Translations under genes and position numbers: made by a program
Notes under the pieces: model-generated
Seen by the model: the letters and a program-made list of their open reading frames with translations, nothing else
Databases searched by the model: none
Told to the model about the DNA's origin: nothing
NCBI GenBank assembly: GCA_949318235.1
Contig: OX439131.1
Span: 27,179,379 to 27,243,378, forward strand
DNA length: 64,000 nucleotides
Direction: 5' to 3'
From: Ecdyonurus torrentis
Taxonomy: Eukaryota; Arthropoda; Insecta; Ephemeroptera; Heptageniidae
Part shown: positions 3,665-63,865 of the stretch, one piece after another
How the letters are laid out: every line of letters begins with the position of its first letter
Position numbering within the stretch: position 1 is the first letter of the stretch

Positions 3665-4720
3665 TTTCATTTATTGTCTCCTCTAAGGAAACTTGTAATA
3701 AATCTAGATGTCTTCTGAGGTCCCGAGGTGAGACTTTGAGTGGACATCCTGAAAAAGGTGCCCAAACTTATTTATGTTTCATCCTTTGTTGTGTACAGGG
3801 AGTTAAAATATTTAAATGTCTCCTGATTTCCCCAGGTGACACATCAAGCGGACATCATGAACGAGGGCAGGGCCTCCAACTTATTTATGTTATCGCTTGA
3901 TTGTGTACAGAGTTGAAATATTGAGATATTTCCTGAACTCCACAGGAGAGACATCGAGCGGACATCCTGAACGAGGGGCCCCAAGTAGGCCCTCAACTTA
4001 TTTATCATTTAATCTATTATTTACAGGGCATTGAAATATTGAGATGTTTCCTGAACTCCCCAGGAGAGACATCGAGCGGACATCCTGAACGAGGGGCCCC
4101 AAGTAGGCCCTCAACTTATTTATCATTTAATCTATTATTTACAGGGCATTGAAATATTGAGATGTCTCCTGAAGTCCCCAGGGGAGACATGGACTGGACA
4201 TCCTGAACGAGGGGCCCCAAGTAGGCCCTTAACTTATTTATCATTTAATCTATTATTTACAGGGCATTGCAATATTGAGATGTCTGCTGAGGTCTTCCGG
4301 GGAGACATCGAGTGGACATCCTGAACGAGGGGCCCCAAGTAGGCCCTCAACTTATTTGTCATTTAATCCATTACTTACAGGGCATTAAAATATTGAGATG
4401 TCTCCTGAGGTCCCTAGGGGTGACATCGAGCGGACATCCTGAACGAGGGGCCCCAAGTAGGCCCTCAACTTATTTGTCATTTAATCCATTATTTACAGGG
4501 CATTGAAATATTGATATGTCTCCTGAGGTCCCCAGGGGAGACATCGAGTGGACATCCTGAACGAGGGGCCCAAAGTAGGCCCTCAACTTATTTATCATTT
4601 AATCCATTATTTACAGGGCATTAAAATATTGAGATGTCTCCTGAGGTCCCCAGGGGAGACATCGAGCGGACATCCTGAACGAGGGGGCCCTAAGTGGGGC
4701 CCAAATAATTTTTTTGCTAA
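3665..4720. repeat. 118-bp tandem satellite, about nine units
   Basis: The word GACATC followed by CTGAACGAGG or a variant starts at 3743, 3851, 3961, 4079, 4197, 4315, 4433, 4551 and 4669. The first two spacings are 108 and 110 bp; the next six are exactly 118 bp. Each unit carries GGTCCCCAGGGGAGACATC-like and GGGGCCCCAAGTAGGCCC words plus a TTTACAGGGCATT segment. The period is not a multiple of three, so the open frames across it are incidental. Confidence 0.9.
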
Positions 4721-11362: not shown

Positions 11363-14300
11363 ATGGCAGAAATTGGAAACTCATCTAGCTATATGCTAAA
11401 GGTAATTATAACCCTTTTATTTGATTTTTTTGTTGTACGGAACCACGCCCACGCGCTTTTGACATTTCAGTTCTGTGCACTTGCAACTGGAAGTGTTGTA
11501 TGCAATAATAACTTTACTTTTGATTTACTGGACCCTATATTAGCTGATGACTTTAATAATAAAAATATTTGATTAGCATCAGCACCAAAAGTTTCTCATT
11601 TATTTAAATTATGCATGAAAAACATACACATATGCATATATGTACAAAAATATACATATGTATACATACATAATTTATGTACATAAAATCATGCTTGGTA
11701 TATACATACATACATATACATATAAATATGAATAAATCTTACCCCAAAAAAAAAAAAAAAATGCCATTTAAATTAGAAATAGATAAATAAATAAATAATC
11801 GTCTTTATAAAGAATAATATATATAAAGAATATATTCAAAAAAATGCATAGAAAAAAAAATACAAATTTTAGATACGTATTAAGTATGAGCAAATACAGA
11901 CCCAGCTGCGGTGGCTCAACTGTATAATTCCAATAATTGAACCAAATTCCTACCAAAAGCTTTGCACAATTCATCTGTTATTTACCAGTTTCTCCGGCAA
12001 TCCATTCCACCCTTTACCATATCTGAGAAATAAACAAGTACAGTATGTATATGCAGGCTCGGACTGGCCATAAGAGCAAGTCCGCAATTGCGGACGTGGC
12101 CCCCCCTGTTTGGAGGCCCCCATGATACAATAAAGATAGATATGCTCGACCGATGACGAGTTTGCGCACGCTCTGCGCTGTCCTCTGAGTGACGTCACAC
12201 AGCGGACAAATACATAGCAAGGGTCCCCCTATACCCTGATGGAGCATTACTTCCATATAGTTCTGATTAAACTTCAGAAAATTGATGCCCTGTTCCACAA
12301 AAACGATCTCGATTTATTAGGAACTGCTATCTTCGATTACCGATATTTTCTTTTGATTTCCCGCAATTTCGGGTTAAAATGCAAAACACTCTCCGATTAT
12401 TTCTTACAGGTGCTAGGAATGAATGCGCAAAAAGTCTAGCAAGCGTTTGCACAGCTCTGGTGCGCTTGAAAGTTGACAAACGGCAAACATGCGCAGAACG
12501 AGAGCGAGGTGAGAAACCCGTCTCTGCGCAGGTAGCAATTAAAAAGTAATTTTGCGAACACTCTCGATCACCTCTTGATTATTTTGCGAATACACTCTGA
12601 TCTGCGCTTGAGCACCCCCTGGAGGCCCCTAAGGCCCAAAAAGGGGCGTAACTAGGGTGTTACGCCCCTTTTGTGGCCCCTAAAGAGTGTTTTGCGGACG
12701 AGTCCCCTTGATTGCCAGTCCGACCCTGTGTATATGTATACAAATTTATAGCATGATCAGTATTACTTTCCATTCTAATAAGTTATAACCCTTCTGTCAG
12801 TTTGCCCTTTAATTTTAACCATTCCCTGAACCCTCTCTGTCTCATTGCGGTGAGTCTTCTTGCCTACCTCCTACCTCTGTTTTTCTTTCCTTTTTTTTAT
12901 GTATATATTGAGGAATATGCCGCATTTCGGTATTACTGCAATCTCCGCGGGTGCAATTTTGGTACATCTGCATTCTCCGTGCTCCTTTCTATTGAAACAT
13001 CGTTATATGCTTATTCTGCACAGGTGGGCCATTAGTAGGTACAGCGGAGATCACACATACTAAAATTGCACCCGGCCCCGGCACCCGCGGAGATTGCAGA
13101 AGTACCGAAATGCCGAGTAACCCTCTATATGTTACATAATGCACATCTGTTACTTAATAATGCTATAAGCTAAAAAAAAAAAATAATAATAAATTAGAAA
13201 ATTCAATACCTGAAAGTTTAAATTAAAAGGTTACATATTTTCTTTTTTACAGATTATTTTCCTTCTACACTTCATTTTGGTTGTTTGGTAAGTATAAACA
13301 TACATATCCTTGTGAAGTTGCCTGGACATCATATTAAAGATTAATAGCAAAAGCCTATATTATAGAGAATAGATGTGATAAATTTGAAGAAAAAAAAAGG
13401 CTACGTAATAGAAAACCAGCAAGGGCCTTGTACAATAGTAAAGAGAGTTCCATAATGAAATAAAAATAATGCTAGCACAGAGATAAAACTAACACATTGG
13501 AGTTTTCAGCACTAAACCCCAAGAGAACACAGAGTGTGTTGTGCCTTCATCAGTCCAACATATAGTTTCCTATTGACAGTGAGTCTGATGAAGGCATAAC
13601 ATACTGTATTCTGTGTCGTCTCTATGAGTAGTGAGTTTAGTCAAGGCATCCTAAAGAAGACTGACTTCTGTAGGATGCCTTGGTTTAGTGCTGAAAGCTA
13701 TCCAAAATGTGTTAATTTTGTATCTCTGTACTAGCAATATTTTTATGTAACTATATGACTCTTCAATATGGTATAAGGCGCTCTTGCTGGTTTTCTTCTA
13801 TTCTTTTCTTTCAAATTAACCATACTTAACGGATATGGTTCATTTTACTTAATGTCCCTATAGAGAATAGAGCAGGGAAAATTAAGAAGTCAGATATAGT
13901 GAGCCAAGCTTCCTACAATTATATTACATTTCCTACATGATTGTGAATCTACAAACCATTTTTAAATCCCTAATTTATCATTTACTTGAGCTGTACTGTA
14001 CACTCCCCCGAGATAAATCTGACCGGTCGCGTTAAAGTCTCCTCATATATTTAACATTTGGAGACATGAACGCTGCAGCCAGATTTATCTCGGGGGAGTG
14101 TACCTTCAGCCAAGGCAGCTAAAGGTGACCTAGTGCTATTTTGTTAGTCAGACTGCACAACTTTTATACCCATAGACCATACTCCTCATGCTCTTTACTC
14201 ACTATTCTTCAATTCTAATTAATATGTATATTAAGGAAAATAAACCATCGTGGTTAGGTATGATAAATTGAAAGAAAAGGATAGGAGAAAACCAGCAAGG

Positions 14301-48890: not shown

Positions 48891-51800
48891 CTTCTTTCTT
48901 CCCCTTTTCTTTTTGAAAAAAAAATATTGCTTTGAGGCCAGATATATTGAAAGCTAATTTAAAGCTAATTTAAAACTTGAAATAAACATATACATATTAA
49001 CATTTTTTTTTTGTATTATTATTATTTTTTTTTTTTACTGATATGGTTACATAAGAAAAAAAAAGTCATAAGTACCAATTTACTCCAATCTATAATCACC
49101 CTTTTAAATTTCTAGTGTTAAAGGCGTAGAACACCCTCAGGACCAAAATATGATAAATAAGCACATAAATTGTACATACCAGGCTCATATAGTGGTAATA
49201 CCGTTGATTGCACCCTTCTGGTTGATTTTCCAAGTATTTTAGGTTGAAAATTGTAACGGTTCTCTTTGCGGGTTCGTTTCGTCATACGATACTCCGCTTT
49301 TCTAGCAGTTTCAAGTATAGATAAACTCTTTTTTTCTATTGGCTGACAATAAAATTGCGCGAAAGATGTTTGAAACGTTTATAACACATTTTCCTTTTCA
49401 ACACTGATTATATTATTCTTGATCTCTGTGGTTGTAATTATGATACACATACTTCACAATTATTACAATTACTATTACAGTATACTGTTATGATGCGCAA
49501 CATCTCTAAATGAGTGTCAATGAACCCCCCGGTCCCCGCAATGCACTAAACTGCGAACACGCGTACAGATCGTGCACGGGCAGGCGGCAGGCTACAAGGA
49601 AGTAGCGATCACCACAGCATAGGGGAGGGGGTTGGAGCTCTAGATGCGAGAGCTACTAAAAACAAAGAGCAGCACGGACGATATACCGCGTGCCTTTGCC
49701 TCTCAAAGGAGAGCTGCTCTAGAGTTCCAACCTGGCTCCAACCCCCTCCCCTATGCTGTGGGGATTGCTACACTGACTTCCTTGTAGCCTGCCCGACTGC
49801 CCGATATACGCGTGTTCGTAGTTCCGTGCATCGCGGGCTGATCGCAGGGATCGGGGGGTTCGTTGACACTGATTTAGAGAAATTGCGCATCATAATGTGT
49901 AGCATCTAGCATCATAACAGTATATAGTAATTGTAATAATATTATGTATCATTGTGAAGTATGTGTGTATCATAATTACAACCACAGAGATCAAGAATAA
50001 TATAATCAGTGTTGAAAAGGAAAATGTGTTATAAACGTTTCAAACATCTTTCGCGCAATTTTATTGTCAGCCAATAGAAAAAAAGAGTTTATCTATACTT
50101 GAAACTGCTAGAAATGCGGAGTATCGTATGACGAAACGAACCCGCAAAGAGAACCGTTACAATTTTCAACCTAAAATACTTGGAAAATCAACCAGAAGGG
50201 CGCAATCAACGGTATTACCACTATATGAGCCTGGTATGTACAATTTATGTGCTTATTTATCATATTTTGGTCCTGAGGGTGTTCTACGCCTTTAAAAAGG
50301 TTAATCTAAATAATGAGAGAGAATACATTGTAATCCGGTCCAAAATAAAACGCAAGAAGTGTTTATATGGTAATGGTACTAGTTATCGGCAGGCCGCAGT
50401 TATCGACAGGCTCTTTTTACGGCGAAAGTAATAAGTTAACAAGATTCTAACTAGAACCAACCTATCTTAGAATTTCGTCTACTTGCCATACCACTACCTA
50501 CAAACTCTTTTATCACTAGAGGGGGCCGAGATAAACTGCCGAAAACTGCAGCAGTGTCGGTTTGGCTGCTTTTCTCAACAATACTATAGGAATTTCAACC
50601 TTAAGATCCTTAAGCTGCCGATAACTAGTACAATTACCATAAATTGCATAGGGTTGTGCACTTTAGCAAGCTCATCATTATTAATAATTATTATTGCAGT
50701 AGTAAATGGTGTTATTACATATTGTGTGATATATTTTGAATATATGTCAATTTCTTTATACTGAACTGTATTACCTGTATGTACTTATATTTCTTGCATT
50801 TTGTTAAGCCTGACTTGAATGTTTGTTGAATGGAGAAAGTAATAATATCATTAATTGAATATTATTCAATGTTATTGTTTACAGACAAAACTTGATGGCT
50901 ATCGTACTGAGCAGAAGAATGGCAAGGAGTTGAAGGGTGAGCAGTTAGCAGCAGTGGCCAAGTATGGTGAAGTGTGTACAACACTAGAATTTGCTGCAGA
51001 CTTAGCCAAGTCTGTGCAAACTCTAAGTGCTGAACATGCTAAACTACAGAAGAAACAACTACGGAAAGATCAACTGGAACGTACACAAAATGAACTCAGC
51101 AGGATCCGAGAACTTCTCATTATTCAGGTTTGATTTGTCAAATAGTTCATAAATAACTGAGAAATGCCTCCACTTCTTTGTCTACCTCATTTGATTTATA
51201 AGTCTGATAATATTTTTACTTTTACCAGCTGGTAAGAAATTGACATGCATTCACATATTCATTTATTTGTTGTAACTTTGCACAGCAAATTGCTAAAAAG
51301 CATGGTTTCAAAATATAGTAATTATTTTGCATCGCAAAGTTACAAGTAAAGAAATGTGTGACTACACCTCTAGGTAGTAAAATTAAGTGCTAAAAAAAGC
51401 TCACTAGGTCTCTTTATGTTAAAATTCATTTAAATATTAATCTTAAAAAAAATAAAATAAAAAAAATAAAAAAAACTCATTTGCCTTTATATTTATAAAA
51501 AATTATGTCTACTGCTGGTTCTTTCTTTTTCCTTAAAGCCCAGGACAGCAGTCAATTCTTATTGCACTTTAGAATCCGCCCCTGGGATAGCGTCCATAAA
51601 GCTAGCACGGTCCAAACTTGTAACAAGAAAAGAGAAAAACCGCTGTCCTAGGCTTAAGACTCTAGTCTTAAAGAGTTCAATTGGAGGACACTTGTACTTG
51701 TGGTGTCAATTTGAAACTAAAAAGCTAATATTACCCAAAGTGTACCACTACTACCACTGTTATTCTTGATGCTATTTGTTCTGGTGACTTATGTTAACAA

Positions 51801-52069
51801 TATTGGTTTTGCAGGATGTGATGCAGAATATGGGCAATGAAACTGTACGAGAAGACTTTTTGGCAGGCAGAGATGGTGCTGCCCAGATTACTCAGGAAGA
51901 ATTGACTCGGCTTGATGAACTGTATCCTATGGTGGCTCCTAAACGTGAAGATGGCGCAGCATTTGTACAGCACGTATGTTAATAAATAAATAAATAAATA
52001 TGGAGTCAATTTTTTTTCAAGTGATACGTTGTTGCTTTTAATGTGCTGAAACCCTATAGAAAAATATCA

Positions 52070-52112
<43 letters not shown>

Positions 52113-54618
52113 ATATATAGGCCTATATATATATATAGGGTATATATACCTATATATTATATTTAATTGTGTATGTTGGTTTTAGGTGGCAAGTGCAGCT
52201 GAGCATCTACTTCATCTGATGGAAGGTCGTAACAAAGAGTTTCTTGGTTCCAATTATGCATCCACAAAGGAGCTCTTGCAACGGATTAATACTAGTGGAT
52301 ATTTTGAAAACAATGCACTAAAACTGGCACCTGAGACAATATCACAGGTTGGTGCCCCTTTTTATCACAATAATATACACAATTTTGTACTTAGCATGAG
52401 GGTGCTACCATAGTGTTTGGACCAGCCATCAAGACTGTAGCTCTCTCACTGCAGCACCTCTACTTAACACAAGGATGAGTTGACTGAAAGTTTGTCTGAG
52501 CACTATAAGTAATTATAGTAATAGTAATATTAAATTAACTAATGACACTACAAAAATGACTATTTTTGCAATACACAGGATATAGTGTGGGGGGCACTGC
52601 TAACTTTGTGGGAAGAAAAGAAAAAGAAAGAAAGAAAGAAAAACAATAAATTTTTTGGTGTGTCATATTTTCATTTTTCTATTCATTTAGTATTGGATTG
52701 ACAAAACAGAAATGTAAGCCAGCAGGGTCGGACTGGCAATCAAGGGGCCTCATCCGCAAAAGGGGCGTAAAACCCTCTTTAGGGGCCACAAAGGGGGCGT
52801 AACGCCCTAGTTACGCCCCTTTTTGGGCCTTAGGGACATCCAAACACGGGGGGCCACGTCCGCAATTGCGGACTTGCTCTTATGGACAGTCTGAGCCTGT
52901 AAGCCAGTCATTGTGCCCAACAAAGTGTGGGTGTGAATCAAAAATTTTGCACTAATATACTTGCATATCGAGGTTGTCGCGAAAAAAATGTGTAACTCGT
53001 ATTTTGTCAGGCGAAGCAAAATGTGTAAGTCGTTTTTTGTCACGCTAAGCAAAATGTGTAACTCGTATTTTGTCACGCGTAGCAAAATGTCTATCTCGTT
53101 TTTTATCACGCGAAGCAAAATGTGTAACTCCACTTTTTGACAAAAATGATTTTTTTAATGTTTTGAATTCTTTGAATTATGTACTTCCTTGAGTTCATTT
53201 TTTATTGTTTGAATCGATTTATTTATTAAGTTATTGTTTATTTCTTATCGCTTCTCTTAGTCAATCTTAAAACGCATATTTAGTTATAAATTTAATCGCT
53301 AGGTGGCACTTTTTTATTTAAAAAATAATAGTTTTAAAAGAGAAGTACCAATGTTAAAGAGTTTTAAAACTTATAACTAACTAATTTTATTGCCCTAATA
53401 ATTTCAAATTGTTTACTTATGAGCTGTATTCTATGTTTCTAAAATTATTAATTATTGAAAACAACGAGCCTGTATTTTCAATAATGGCGTGATACATTTT
53501 TAAGAATTATGTGACCATAATTTTATTTTAGTTGTTTCTTTGTACAGTTGGTGTGCAAATTTTTCGAAAAACACATGGGCGTGTTAGTGTGGATATGATT
53601 ACGTAAAATTAAGAACAATGATAAGAATAAGCCTATTTTTATTTAAATTTATAAAATTAAAATAATTTTTTATATAAATAATGCACTTTTTAGCTTACCT
53701 AGTATAAAGTTTTAATAAAAGAAAAGCAATATTACTCATAAATCATGCATTTTGTTTGCTATAATAATATCTTGTAAAATTTTTGTTTGAAAAATTAATT
53801 AAGCATAAAAAATTAGGTTATTTAATATTTAAAACAATATAATGTATAATATTTTTTTACAAACGCTTCTCCTGTAAAATTTCTTATTTACGACTTACAC
53901 ATTTTGCTACGCGTGACAAAATACGAGATACACATTTTGCTTAGCGTGACAAAAAACGACTTACACATTTTGCTTCACCTGACAAAATACGAGTTACACA
54001 TTTTTTTCGCAACATTATCGATATAGCAAGTTGTCACACCTTTTTAACCTTTTTGTATTACATACTGTGCAGAGGGTAGCAAAAGTAATGATTCTACACT
54101 AATACACTTTCGAAGGTTTCAAAATAATAATATAAAAAAAAAAGAATAAAATAATTTTCCTGTGAATTAAGTAACCTCTAAGGAACGATCAAAACTGTGT
54201 ATACTTATGTAGATTCCATTATACCTCCCCCCATAAAAAAATTTCAACTTATTCAAAAAATGGATACACATTTCTGTGACATCATAATCCCTTTGCATGA
54301 TTGGACAAGAACAAATCACTTCTAGTAAAGTGGTAATGTTATGAGCTATAAATAACCAAATCTCAGACTCAAAATACTGCACTCCTCAAGAGTTCCTAAT
54401 ATCCTACTTAAACAAATTGGGCCACCTTTTGTCTTACCAAAGGCAGTACTCTTCACTATGAAGAAGTGATAAACTAATTGGTTGGCCTGTCCCTGCACTG
54501 GCAACTTCTGTTAAAGCCCTTGTCAACTTACTTTTTTATCATTTAGAATGCTAGATTGATAATTACCATACCTTATCTCAGGGTTTCTCAACCTGCTCCC
54601 CAGAATTTAGGAAGAAGT

Positions 54619-57600: not shown

Positions 57601-58684
57601 GTGTTAAATGCATCTAACCCATGGCTTGATTTCTAGGAGGTGCTGAAGGTGATGACTTCTCTGGTGGACGTCCGGGAGGTTTCAGAGGCCGAGGTGGCCG
57701 AGGAGGGCGAGGACGAGGCACTGGTTTCTCTGGACGTAGTCGAGGGCAACAGAATGGAGGAGGAAAATCTGGTGAGTATCTTGGCTATTTTATTAGCTTG
57801 GACATGCAACTTTACCATATTATGCAACATTTTAACATTGTTATATATGAGACGAAATTCGCCGTTCCAGCCACGACGGCACCAAATGCAAAATGTTTTC
57901 AGATTTTGATGAAATTTTTTTTGGTAATACACCTAAGTGTAGTACGTAACTCAGCAAAATATGTTCAAAATATTCTTATTATTAAGGCCGCTAGAGCGCT
58001 TTGAACGTGCCGCGGACGCTTTTTAAGTGTCACATGGGCTCAACTTTGACGCGCGATAACTCTGCCTCTAGTTATTGGAATTTCGATTTTATTTTTTTAT
58101 TGTAATGAACAATAGGTACTTATAATTATATTAACTGTTGTGAAATTATAAATTTGCAATTTTTATTATAGTTAAAAAAAATAAAGAAAATTTGTAATTT
58201 TAGCCCAAATTAGCTATTTTGAATGCTTAGTAAAAAATAGTAATTTTTTAAAAAAATTACTTTTTACGATCTTATGGGCTACTTTAGATCTTGTTTAACA
58301 TAAAAATCGAAAAAAATGTTTTTTTGGTGGTTTTGAGTATTTGCAGCAGTGGTTTTAAAAACACATGTTTCGAAAAATGACCCATATTGACATGCAAATA
58401 AGTCTATGATGCAACTTGATATCAATAAAAATAAGTATACTGCAAGAAAGGGCATTTCCTACTTAACAAATGTAAAAAATAAAAAAGTTGTGTATTGAAT
58501 GTCTTCTGTAAGATATCGAGCACCTCGCAACATGCTATATTGCGCTGCGCGCTACGTCAGAAATATCCCACTTTTCACTTCCACGCCGCTTGTAAACCCT
58601 TAAACTAGCCAAATTTTATATCCCTTTTTAAGCTCTAACCATAAATAGTTATCCTGGAAAAAAAATCTAATTTTATCAATAATC

Positions 58685-58751
<67 letters not shown>

Positions 58752-60258
58752 AATGAAGCTTTTTTATTAGTTTGAATATTATGTAGTTCAATATCTTTTA
58801 TATTTAATATAAAATATTAGCAATAGTCAAAAGGCAAAAAATATAATAATAAAAAATTAAATAAAAAAAAAAAAAAAGAAAACAATAATAATAACTATAA
58901 TTTAATCTCTTTACTTTAATTTTTAACATTTAAAATTTAACATTTCCATCATTTAACTCAAAATAAATACATTACCCGGATTAAAATATGCCTTTTTTTT
59001 TTAAGTTAGCTTCAAACATCAGTTAGATGCTTTTGATTTTTCTGTTATTGATTTTGTTGTTTTTCGATTGAATCAAAAAAGAATAAACCATTTTAACAGC
59101 TTAGCAATTTGATAGTATTTCAAAAAATAATAAAAATAATAAGGGGATGCTATAGGGGGCACTAAAATAGAATATTAATATATAAGGAAATGTTTTTTTC
59201 AAGAACAATTAATTATTGTTCTACGTAATTATACATTTAATAAAGTTAGTTTGAATCAAATTTTAATTAAATTTTAAAACGAGGGTCTCAATAAGATTTT
59301 TTCCCCTTTGCCTTTTGCCTATTGCTAATATTTTGTATTTAAATTAATAGATGCGAAAGATATTGAACTACATAATATTCAAACTAATAAAAAACTTCAT
59401 TCAAAAAAAAAAAAAAAAAAAAAAAAAAAACATTATTGAGAAAATTAGACTTTTTTTCCAGGATAACAATTTATGGTTAGAGCTTAAAAAAGGATATAAA
59501 ATTTGGCTAGTTTAAGGGTTTACAAGCGGCGTGGAAGTGAAAAGTGGGATATTTCTGACGTAGCGCGCAGCGCAATATAGCATGTTGCGAGGTGCTCGAT
59601 ATCTTACAGAAGACATTCAATACACAACTTTTTTATTTTTTACATTTGTTAAGTAGGAAATGCCCTTTCTTGCAGTATACTTATTTTTATTGATATCAAG
59701 TTGCATCATAGACTTATTTGCATGTCAATATGGGTCATTTTTCGAAACATGTGTTTTTAAAACCACTGCTGCAAATACTCAAAACCACCAAAAAAACATT
59801 TTTTTCGATTTTTATGTTAAACAAGACCTAAAGTAGCCCATAAGATCGTAAAAAATAATTTTTTTAAAAAATTACTATTTTTTACTAAGCATTCAAAATA
59901 GCTAATTTGGGCTAAAATTACAAATTTTCTTTATTTTTTTTAACTATAATAAAAATTGCAAATTTATAATTTCACAACAGTTAATATAATTATAAGTATT
60001 GTTCATTACAATAAAAAAATAAAATCGAAATTTCAATAACTAGAGGCAGAGTTATCGCGCGTCAAAGTTGAGCCCATGTGACACTTAAAAAGCGTCTGCG
60101 GCACGTTCAAAGCGCTCTAGCGGCCTTAATAATAAGAATATTTTGAACATATTTTGCTGAGTTACGTACTACACTTAGGTGTATTACCAAAAAAAATTTC
60201 ATCAAAATCTGAAAACATTTTGCATTTGGTGCCGTCGTGGCTGGAACGGCGAATTTCG

Positions 60259-60338
<80 letters not shown>

Positions 60339-61984
60339 GTTCATAGCTGATGCAAATGTAAACAATCTGTGATTGCAATTTAATGTGTAGTATTATCTAG
60401 CGTTGTTTTATCTCACATTTATATTTGTTGAAAGTATCGCAAAGATAACTTTTCCGTATTAATGAATTCTCAGGCAACTACCAAAACCGTGGCAACCAAG
60501 ATGGAGGTGAACGTGGCTATGAAAATGGTGGGCCACCTCAGCGCGACTACAGCCAGCGTGAATACGGTGGTAATTTTAAACGAGGAGGCGGCGGTGGCGC
60601 TCCCAGAGACAGAGAGGGTGCTCCTAGCAGAGGTGGACAAGGTTGGTTTTATCAACACAATATCTGACAATATGGTAGTCCATGATAAAAGCATTAATCA
60701 TAATACATCGTGGTGATACAATCATGATGTATTTTATGTAGGCTGACCAGAAGTCCTGATTTTCCCGTGATAATCCCGATTTTGACACCTCGTCCCGTCT
60801 AAAAATTGAAATGTCCCTATTTCTTACAAAGGGGGAAAAATTAAAATTAATATAAAGCACACATAATGAATGATTTTAACATAATAACATCGTGATATCT
60901 GGTAGTTTTATTTAAAAGCAAATTTTATGACTGTTGGAAAAAAAAGAACAAGGAGTTCAAAATATTTTTTTAAATTATGATTATTTCTGATGTACTCTTA
61001 TTAAAAAATAAGATAAACAGCTATAATTTTTTCATTTAGCCATTGGAAAAAACCTTCAAAATAAGCTTAAAAATCAGGGACCATGCCCCCTTTATGAAAA
61101 TTTTTGTGCCTCCGGCAAGGCACTCTGCCCCCATCCCAGGTTGCTTGGCGCCAGGATCAGCGTGTCCTGATTTTGCCTCTAGGGAATATGGTCAGCCTTA
61201 TTTTATGTTGGACGAAAAAGGAGTAAAAATGCAATGTTTCCAAATCACTTATTTTGTGGGGTGGTCTTGTGTGGGAAAAAATATTTTAGAAATTACTTAA
61301 AAATTTGTATTTGTGTGTGTGTGGGGGGGGGGGGGGGGGATACTACAATTTTTGTTATTTGGGCTGGGTTGGTTGAAAAACGTTACCAAGATAAGGGTGT
61401 CAAACTAAGAATGATAAGAGATAGTTAGCACTATATTTCAAGGAGCATATTTTTCTTAGTCATGCTGATGAAGCCCAATAAGGCTGAAACAGCTGTCTAT
61501 GGCTTGTGAGTGAGGTGTTCTAAGTAAGTAGTGTCATACATTTTTGTGAGCCACATCAAAAATACCAATAAAATAGCAAATACCAACCCCTTCTCACCCT
61601 CTTTACAAATTTGAGCTTCGGTAATAATGAGCTCACTATGGTACACCCCTTTTCAAGTTATATAAAGTACACACCTTTCGCGTTTAATTTTTGGATCAAG
61701 TTAGAATATTTTCTCTCATGTCAGGTGTCGCTATCTATTAACAGTTTAATTTCCCACTTCCCAATTGTTCAAATCTATGTGTTTTTCTATCATCTTTTTA
61801 GCAATCAATTATTTGCTAAGTCAATTTATTTTCTTAATCATCTACATATAGCTCATTTAAAAAAAAAATGAAACTTTCAGGCTACAGAGGTGGTAGCGGT
61901 GGTCCTTTCCGAGGCAATCCCAGCAATCGCATGAGAGGCAGCAACAACCAAGGGGGTCCTCGTCCCCAACAAGTGAAGCAGTAG
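48079..61984 (+). CDS. CAPRIN1: Caprin (cell-cycle-associated RNA-binding protein)
   Basis: Eight coding exons join in frame: 48079-48192, 50885-51127, 51815-51973, 52186-52347, 56550-57549, 57637-57771, 60474-60641 and 61881-61984, giving 694 aa (human CAPRIN1 709). Residues 1-226 form the conserved HR1-type helical region (DPFKQVLTMIDHKRRNLEKR, then LDGYRTEQKNGKELKGEQL). Exon 5 (227-559) is low-complexity, rich in Pro, Gln and Ala. It holds FNFLQESQLEM at 330-340, which matches the G3BP-binding motif of vertebrate Caprin-1 (NFIQDSMLDF). Exons 6-8 form an RGG/G-rich C-terminus (GGFRGRGGRGGRGRG). Caprins bind mRNA, associate with G3BP/Rasputin and act in stress-granule assembly and translation control. 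Introns 1, 4 and 6 are largely foldback elements; intron 7 carries a hammerhead motif. Confidence 0.95.
48804..49035. repeat. Poly-A / poly-T tracts in Caprin intron 1
   Basis: A run of about 18 A near 48802-48818, then about 30 T (48860-48890) and a T-rich stretch to 49036. No mobile-element boundary is evident. Confidence 0.85.
49118..50295. mobile_element. 1178-bp TTAA-ended foldback, Caprin intron 1
   Basis: The ends TTAAAGGCGTAGAACACC and GGTGTTCTACGCCTTTAA equal those of the 300-bp CRE-bearing MITEs, but the interior is different. Long arms include ATTGTACATACCAGGCTCAT / ATGAGCCTGGTATGTACAAT and CATAGGGGAGGGGGTTGGAG / inverse. They meet near 49700. The arms are nearly identical, so the element is young or still under exchange. 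Confidence 0.9.
51533..51657. mobile_element. Small TTAA-ended hairpin, Caprin intron 2
   Basis: TTAAAGCCCAGGACAGC at the left is matched by GCTGTCCTAGGCTTAA at the right, 125 bp in total. The TTAAAGCCC start is shared with the foldback at 54511-55682. Confidence 0.65.
52068..52140. repeat. (AT)n tract with TATATATAGGCCTATATATA palindrome
   Basis: A TA repeat that passes into an AGGCCT-centred palindrome just before Caprin exon 4. The same AGGCCT palindrome type occurs at about 62912-62942. Confidence 0.85.
52723..52899. mobile_element. hAT-type MITE, copy 3, Caprin intron 4
   Basis: The ends CAGGGTCGGACTGGC and GGACAGTCTGAGCCTG are flanked by a perfect 8-bp duplication TAAGCCAG (52715-52722 and 52900-52907). 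It is 177 bp and closely follows the 5064-5252 copy. Confidence 0.93.
52966..54024. mobile_element. Foldback element with 33-bp subterminal repeats, copy 2, Caprin intron 4
   Basis: The left end TATCGAGGTTGTCGCGAAAA is followed by about four 33-bp units (GCAAAATGTGTAACTCG...). The right end carries about three units in inverted orientation and finishes TTCGCAACATTATCGATA. About 750 bp of AT-rich unique interior separates them. This may be a longer relative of the copy at 22719. Confidence 0.85.
54579..55327. mobile_element. 749-bp hAT-type element (CAGGGTTTCTCAACCT ends)
   Basis: The left end CAGGGTTTCTCAACCTGC and right end AGGTTGAGAAACCCTG are inverted. A perfect 8-bp duplication CCTTATCT flanks it (54571-54578 and 55328-55335). 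The interior has (GA)n at 54626-54656 and AT-rich DNA without a transposase frame. Confidence 0.93.
55466..55487. repeat. Poly-C tract
   Basis: About 22 cytosines at the centre of the CRE-bearing foldback. Confidence 0.9.
56085..56530. mobile_element. Nested composite of two foldback repeats, Caprin intron 4
   Basis: An outer repeat starts AAAACCATTTCGGTTTAAAT and later shows CAATTGCAAGCACAATTGCA / TGTGCTTGCAATTTTGCG arms (56408-56470). Nested in it (about 56140-56300) is a CCAGCAAGGGCC element ending GATCCTAACCGCGATGGTTT. The duplicated host word GAAAGAAAAGTAATAGA lies on both sides of the inner element (56112 and 56310). Confidence 0.75.
57845..60266. mobile_element. 2.4-kb giant palindrome filling Caprin intron 6
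   Basis: The left end ATATGAGACGAAATTCGCCG and right end CGGCGAATTTCGTCTCATAT begin arms about 1 kb long. Examples: AAGGCCGCTAGAGCGCTTTG at 57986 and CAAAGCGCTCTAGCGGCCTT at 60107; GAATGAAGCTTTTTTATTAG at 58751 and CTAATAAAAAACTTCATTC near 59385. Arms differ by scattered substitutions. A long T run (58687-58750) in the left arm faces an A run (59405-59430) in the right. No protein-coding frame. Confidence 0.92.
60262..60335. repeat. (AT)n microsatellite
   Basis: About 70 bp of TA repeats at the right edge of the giant palindrome, suggesting insertion at a TA tract or expansion at its boundary. Confidence 0.9.
60739..61199. mobile_element. hAT-like element (TAGGCTGACC ends), Caprin intron 7
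   Basis: The left end TAGGCTGACCAGAAGTCCTG and right end TATGGTCAGCCTT share a short inverted repeat GGCTGACCA. The flanks carry ATTTTATG at 60731-60738 and 61200-61207, an 8-bp duplication. TCCTGATTTT words occur near both ends in inverted relation to the terminus. No coding frame is seen. Confidence 0.7.
61323..61339. repeat. Poly-G tract
   Basis: A GT-rich stretch followed by about 17 G in Caprin intron 7. Confidence 0.9.
61458..61504 (+). ncRNA. Hammerhead ribozyme motif, type I, minimal stem III
   Basis: All hammerhead parts occur in order on the plus strand: stem I strand AGTCATG (61458-61464), core CTGATGA (61465-61471), stem II AGCC / GGCT (61472-61475 with 61482-61485, loop CAATAA), core GAAA (61486-61489), a 2-bp stem III (A61489-T61496 and C61490-G61495) with loop AGCT, cleavage triplet GTC (61495-61497), and stem I strand TATGGCT (61498-61504). 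The two stem I strands pair over 7 positions, two of them G-U. The layout resembles hammerheads of Penelope-like and other small animal retroelements. It lies in Caprin intron 7, sense orientation, 376 bp before the last exon. Activity is inferred. Confidence 0.8.
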
Positions 61985-63521: not shown

Positions 63522-63865
63522 GGTATTAATTACGTTTAAAAAAAATAATTAGAAAATAGTTGGTAGAGATTAGAGCACGTTGAATTGAAAATTAATAAAA
63601 CGCGAAAATTCTCTAATTTAAATAGTAAATTGGGACTAGGGATGCAAATCATTATAGCTTGCGCTAAATAAAAATAGACGTCTATTTTTATTTAGCGCAA
63701 GCTATAATGATTTGCATCCCTAGTCCCAATTTACTATTTAAATTAGAGAATTTTCGCGTTTTATTAATTTTCAATTCAACGTGCTCTAATCTCTACCAAC
63801 TATTTTCTAATTATTTTTTTAAACGTAATTAATACCAACAGCGATGGTTTTTTCCTATATATTAC
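63522..63865. mobile_element. Near-perfect palindrome between 14-bp direct repeats
   Basis: The arms start GGTATTAATTACGTTTAAAA (63522) and end TTTAAACGTAATTAATACC (63836), meeting at AATAGACGTCTATT near 63677 with essentially no loop. The word CATACTGGACAAGG lies on both sides (about 63510-63523 and 63866-63879). The right flank carries AGCGATGGTTTTTTCC, the terminus of the CCAGCAAGGGCC family, absent on the left. Confidence 0.85.

Follow-up and report, generated by a model that had tools for sequence, protein, structure and literature searches.

A probable solo type I hammerhead sequence in the last intron of a Caprin gene

The window, the whole 64-kb stretch of DNA that was analysed, contains in the last intron of a Caprin gene a hammerhead-type motif at 61458-61504 (+), which reads AGTCATG-CTGATGA-AGCC-CAATAA-GGCT-GAAA-CAGCTG-TC-TATGGCT. 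Most probably it derives from a genuine hammerhead of the animal repeat type and now stands by itself. The favoured explanation, with a probability of about 0.68, is a solo type I hammerhead of retrozyme or Penelope-like origin that persists as an isolated copy in this intron. As a self-cutting RNA, the motif is complete but, judging from predicted folds, probably weak; activity within the intron is doubtful and may be slow or silent, and the motif probably serves no purpose for the host gene. An open-access library yielded no account of a Caprin hammerhead; the one paper listed there as combining hammerhead ribozyme, Caprin and intron deals, by its title, with AAV vector transcripts.

The identity of the host gene rests on two exons with the Caprin-1 dimerisation domain, which also match solved Caprin chains; two protein relatives were found at 84% and 48% identity, and the low-complexity Caprin exon gave no match to solved structures. 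The first-pass annotation had placed the motif on the sense strand of the last Caprin intron, and both the PF18293 exons and the GT..AG phase-1 intron agree with this. The predicted cut after C61497 would split the intron into 856 nt on the donor side and 383 nt on the acceptor side.

The invariant core positions, as an excerpt of PMC3088659 lists them (C3 U4 G5 A6 N7 G8 A9, G12 A13 A14 A15.1 and U16.1 H17), are all present and in register, and there are three stems with the open end at stem I (7 bp, 4 bp and a palindromic 6 nt), the arrangement of a type I hammerhead. None of the core-adjacent pairs is mispaired: 15.1-16.1 is A-U, 1.1-2.1 is a U.G wobble, one of the two in stem I, and 10.1-11.1, the first pair of stem II, is an atypical A-U where G-C is usual. 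Direct reading thus bears out the parts and coordinates given earlier for the core, the 4-bp stem II and the 7-bp stem I, as well as the type I, short-stem-III architecture. It had also been remarked that a minimal stem III suits dimers, which fits well with a stem III that forms the palindrome ACAGCTGT: in a monomer it would provide one C-G pair under an AGCU cap, and in a dimer 8 bp. What that annotation did not contain are the sub-threshold Rfam score, the atypical 10.1-11.1 pair and the predicted misfolding of the monomer, all of which are considered below.

Table 1. Features of the Caprin gene and of the hammerhead-type motif (window coordinates).
Feature	Position	Strand	Basis and details
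Caprin-1 dimerisation domain exon	51788-51979	+	Pfam PF18293, E 2.8e-16
Caprin-1 dimerisation domain exon	52186-52410	+	Pfam PF18293, E 4.6e-11
Last Caprin intron, 1,239 nt, phase 1	60642-61880	+	GT..AG; CAAG/GTTGGT ... TTTCAG/GCTAC; frame RGGQ-G-YRGG
Stem I, 5' strand AGTCATG	61458-61464	+	Sequence; partner 61498-61504; 7 bp, 2 of them G.U
Hammerhead core CUGAUGA (C3 to A9)	61465-61471	+	Sequence, core pattern, model R1
Stem II AGCC/GGCT, 4 bp, 6-nt loop CAATAA	61472-61485	+	AGCC 61472-61475, loop 61476-61481, GGCT 61482-61485
Core GAAA (G12 to A15.1)	61486-61489	+	Sequence, model R1
A15.1 + CAGCTG + U16.1, perfect 8-nt palindrome ACAGCTGT	61489-61496	+	Sequence, folding
CAGCTG stem III/loop	61490-61495	+	Sequence; followed by TC 61496-61497
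C17, predicted self-cleavage after this base	61497	+	Core alignment; 383 nt to intron 3' end
Stem I, 3' strand TATGGCT	61498-61504	+	Sequence; pairs with 61458-61464

The bare core words alone are unremarkable, and it is the stems in register that set the motif above chance. The loose core pattern CTGANGA..GAAA..GTC is expected 0.52 times per window and was present in 38 of 100 shuffles. A strict descriptor, with at least 4 pairs in stem II, at least 7 in stem I and a paired stem III, was satisfied by 82 among 21.2 million simulated cores, an expectation of 6.2e-5 per window, and a second simulation with slightly narrower limits gave 4.5e-5 (123 of 44 million); both values take as given that CTGANGA occurs 16 times in the window. 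The earlier statement that all parts in register are unlikely by chance therefore stands, at 4.5-6.2e-5 per window for core plus stems. In 44 Mb of Markov sequence, read on both strands (88 million strand-bases), there were 0 strict and 2 loose matches, and the expectation for the loose descriptor is 2.9e-3 per window from the Markov sequence and 9.9e-4 from the simulated cores. Per Gb of such sequence this corresponds to approximately 1 strict and 15 loose matches, so that scanning very many windows can yield a lucky match.

With regard to covariance models, no Rfam family reached its gathering score anywhere in the 64-kb window, and the best match in a 351-nt stretch was Hammerhead_HH9, with 24.2 bits, an E-value of 7.3e-4 and a gathering score of 52. 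Scoring against the Rfam hammerhead models, which the first-pass annotation had proposed as a check on its claim, therefore went against the motif, which stays below the gathering threshold for a type I hammerhead; a dedicated model, R1, does recognise it. The Rfam thresholds appear to miss likely real hammerheads, given that none of six viral loci with hammerhead motifs reached that of Hammerhead_1: three matched this family at 27.1-30.5 bits (threshold 34) and three gave no match up to E 0.01. Because of these strict thresholds, R1 was built for type I hammerheads from viral (IMG/VR) contigs, at least 222 rows of which were reduced to 61 non-redundant sequences; 33 of the 61, hand-picked for alignment and including no animal sequence, were used for training. 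Over the 64-kb window the sole significant match of R1 lies at 61457-61505, with 27.7 bits and an E-value of 3.6e-6 against 10.8 bits and 1.2 for the runner-up, these E-values being rough owing to a short calibration. With filters off, over 30000-64000, the scores were 27.7 bits against 11.7 for the runner-up. Weak R1 matches at 13494-13561 (-) and elsewhere were discarded as noise (E 0.32 or more). As a yardstick, 12 loci outside the training set were scored, with five matches at 45-63 bits and four at 13-24, and the motif, at 27.7 bits against the 45-63 of the former, is thus placed below typical viral members.

The pair at 10.1-11.1 is where the motif departs from the viral hammerheads. Among the 69 distinct ones listed, drawn from the 88 loci that were collected first, with no constraint on stem II, this pair is G-C in 59, T-C in 7, A-A in 2, T-T in 1 and A-U in none; when the loci from a GTCC scan are added, G-C accounts for 88 of 98, and two scans aimed at A10.1-U11.1 forms found 0. 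Chance matches of the descriptor have A-U in 50 of 123 cases and G-C in 2 of 123. Nevertheless, an A-U pair may occur, since paired changes at G10.1 and C11.1 are described for cave cricket hammerheads (PMC2837043, in excerpt). Loop II, CAATAA, agrees with the HH9 consensus loop CAAAAA in length and in five of six letters, and a CAAWWA loop, whose chance frequency is 0.003, is absent from all 378 stem II hairpins of comparable form in 214 collected, mostly viral, loci; the loop thus looks animal-like rather than viral, as far as one consensus can tell. HH9 is the C10orf118 ribozyme and HH10 the RECK ribozyme. A schistosome hammerhead has a loop similar to CAATAA. As for stem III, it is fully self-complementary in 16 of 123 chance matches (lengths 2-8 nt). 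A viral-contig scan for an identical stem III (GAAACAGCTGTC) gave three matches, none recognised by R1, and scans for an identical loop II gave one viral and two prokaryote matches, one of which scored 16.8 bits with R1 and two nothing, so that no good relative emerged from them.

The folding predictions, which leave out tertiary contacts, are less favourable to a working ribozyme. In the monomer, the CAGC of stem III is predicted to pair with the GCUG at the core, with a minimum free energy of -14.4 kcal/mol; the hammerhead fold has -7.6 or -6.7 and lies 7.5 kcal/mol above the ensemble. For viral hammerheads the cost of adopting the hammerhead fold was at most 2.74 kcal/mol in 61 of 61 among the matches listed, with a median of 0.53, a comparison that is hard on the Caprin-intron motif in that the viral set had been picked for at least 2 stem III pairs. 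Within a dimer, the cost is reduced to 3.7 kcal/mol (-29.1 vs -32.8), so neither form gives a competitive core fold (7.5 in the monomer, 3.7 within the dimer). The overall fold stability of the stretch is unexceptional, with z between -1.35 and -1.60. These predictions argue that a lone copy would be mostly trapped in an inactive fold, the CAGCUG of stem III being able to pair with the core CUG and thereby hide the ribozyme in the monomer.

Several features of the motif are found among hammerheads of animal repeats. A palindromic stem III is described for the repeat-type ones (PMC3088659, legend of Fig. S8), and in the axolotl HHR_Amex1, whose stem III is one pair under a palindromic tetraloop, 6% of the monomer is cleaved within an hour, the dimer being far more efficient (PMC7229834, in excerpt). 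With animal non-LTR retrozymes such as HHR_Amex1 and a newt satellite, the motif has in common the type I form, an intact core, a one-pair stem III with palindromic tetraloop and a predicted competence for dimers (PMC7229834, in excerpt), whereas theirs are present in many copies in tandem repeats of 150-450 bp and the Caprin motif is single in the window, with A-U at 10.1-11.1. Minimal type I hammerheads are dispersed in their thousands in the non-coding DNA of many animals (PMC7761336, in excerpt), and those of Penelope-like elements and Terminons share with the motif the very short stem III and a dispersed position in non-coding animal DNA (excerpts of PMC7761336 and PMC11167929), but the frames of the Caprin intron are without reverse transcriptase or GIY-YIG, and its 4-bp stem II carries an HH9-like loop. 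Regarding activity, 14 of 18 consensus hammerheads cleaved, and two of the four inactive ones, those of Aedes and Nematostella, may require dimers (PMC3088659, in excerpt); of five schistosome W-element candidates whose stem III is very short, three cleaved and the remaining two carried mutations in the core or at the cleavage site (PMC8490949, in excerpt).

Intronic hammerheads are known in amniotes (excerpts of PMC6155905 and PMC3088659), which makes a hammerhead in a Caprin intron one of a kind already known. Those of RECK and C10orf118 cleave in vitro (PMC3088659, in excerpt). The motif resembles the amniote HH9 and HH10 in being intronic and type I, with a loop II of CAATAA vs CAAAAA, but it scores only 24.2 bits against the HH9 gathering score of 52, and the inner part of HH9 stem I is deleted in the alignment. 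From the viral (IMG/VR) hammerheads, with which it shares the core, a stem I of 5-7 bp, a stem II of mostly 4 bp and recognition by R1, it differs in that theirs have a paired stem III (at least 2 bp, by selection) and mostly G10.1-C11.1.

The search for copies and for a parent element was confined to the window. No second copy was found by descriptor, core pattern or R1, as had been noted on first reading. Repeats of the intron elsewhere in the window were not significant outside low-complexity sequence (AT and poly-A runs among the matches listed), and no tandem repeats of 150-450 bp of the kind seen in animal non-LTR retrozymes accompany the single copy. Eight translated intron frames contained no reverse transcriptase, GIY-YIG or other endonuclease domain, the best match (E 0.048) being to an unrelated family. 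The interpretation given in the first-pass annotation is supported in part: a retroelement origin is likely, with no element body found around the motif, and cutting of the pre-mRNA or of the lariat is no more than a proposal. The same intron contains at 60740-61198 a 459-bp non-autonomous DNA transposon, with inverted ends AGGCTGACCA and a 10-bp duplication TATTTTATGT on both sides. This transposon was rejected as carrier of the motif, as it is enclosed by target-site duplications of its own and stops 259 nt upstream of the motif.

The weightiest competitor of the solo hammerhead is a chance resemblance, in which ordinary intron sequence happens to fit the hammerhead descriptor. This reading is clearly the less probable one and still deserves serious consideration. 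Its expectation within the window, together with the R1 E-value, argues against it, as do two extras that neither descriptor nor model demands, a loop II resembling that of HH9 and a palindromic stem III; in its favour are a score under every Rfam gathering score, the number of matches expected per Gb, an A10.1-U11.1 pair that is common in chance matches and unseen in the viral hammerheads listed, and the predicted misfolding of the monomer. An intronic box C/D snoRNA, with TGATGA as box C and CTGA as box D instead of a ribozyme core, would suit the sense intronic place, the TGATGA at 61466 and the CTGA at 61484, and there are weak Rfam snoRNA matches. Yet the best of these to be named, SNORD74, reaches 12.7 bits against a gathering score of 41 (E 0.68), the boxes are merely 12 nt apart, and 61300-61700 holds no second exact C box and no further CTGA except inside CTGATGA; the snoRNA is disfavoured as highly improbable.

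Two further readings turn on the splicing of the intron. A 64-nt exon at 61460-61523, cryptic or of the cassette type, that would end Caprin early with VMLMKPNKAETAVYGL could exist alongside the solo hammerhead or instead of it. An acceptor-like TATTTTTCTTAG precedes 61460 and GTAAGT stands at 61524, each the one intron match for the patterns tried, and the reading frame that comes from exon 7 crosses the motif, with 16 open codons before a TGA; however, an open frame of 16 codons easily arises by chance and such an exon leaves the hammerhead core unexplained, which makes it unlikely. The same sole GTAAGT and sole acceptor-like match (61450-61459) bracket the motif, which may be a coincidence, and could also speak for a co-opted regulatory ribozyme, whose cleavage of the Caprin pre-mRNA would steer splicing or produce an alternative 3' end, a role that has been suggested for the RECK and C10orf118 hammerheads of amniotes. 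The sense orientation within an intron of a conserved gene, the intact core, the in vitro cleavage of these two amniote ribozymes (PMC3088659, in excerpt) and HH9 as best Rfam family are compatible with co-option, but the weak predicted monomer fold, the inability of a single copy to form a dimer in cis and an HH9 score of less than half its threshold leave it quite unlikely. An even more speculative variant, to which hardly any probability is attached, is a dimer-gated switch. Here ACAGCUGU would keep single Caprin pre-mRNAs uncut by sequestering the core CUG, and two nascent transcripts, on pairing through it, would assemble into a double hammerhead in which each cuts the other within the 64-nt cassette exon (boundaries 61459/61460 and 61523/61524). 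Cleavage would then respond to the local density of transcripts at the gene, which encodes an RNA-granule protein.

Under the favoured explanation of a solo hammerhead derived from an animal repeat, the ACAGCUGU palindrome would have joined two adjacent ribozymes in the parent element, giving a dimeric hammerhead with a shared 8-bp stem III that would cut tandem transcripts of the element after UC. A copy would then have inserted into the last Caprin intron and remained isolated there. Being alone in the intron, the motif is predicted to pair its stem III strand with the core CUG, so that the majority of molecules would be held as an inactive hairpin; the Caprin pre-mRNA would be cleaved slowly or not at all, and would normally be spliced first. 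If active, the motif would add one more host gene to the few with an intronic hammerhead, in this case a gene for an RNA-binding protein, and even as a relic it suggests retrozymes or Penelope-like elements in the same animal genome. There is also a lesson for scoring, as the Rfam thresholds passed over viral hammerheads too.

Other repeats lie in the gene and elsewhere in the window. The preceding Caprin intron contains a foldback element at 57842-60269, whose arms, 57842-58838 and 59307-60269, show 94% complementarity in an alignment of 1,006 bases; (AT)36 comes after it. A 144-nt inverted repeat at 63536-63823, with 99% complementarity and no spacer, lies downstream of the last Caprin coding exon. 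Upstream of the first Caprin exon found, two nearly identical open frames of 86 residues are present in inverted orientation at 49118-49378 (-) and 50035-50295 (+), and are perhaps the ends of one mobile element. Furthermore, a 118-bp tandem repeat occupies 3708-4695; its 7.7 copies span 3794-4695 and are preceded by a diverged stretch.
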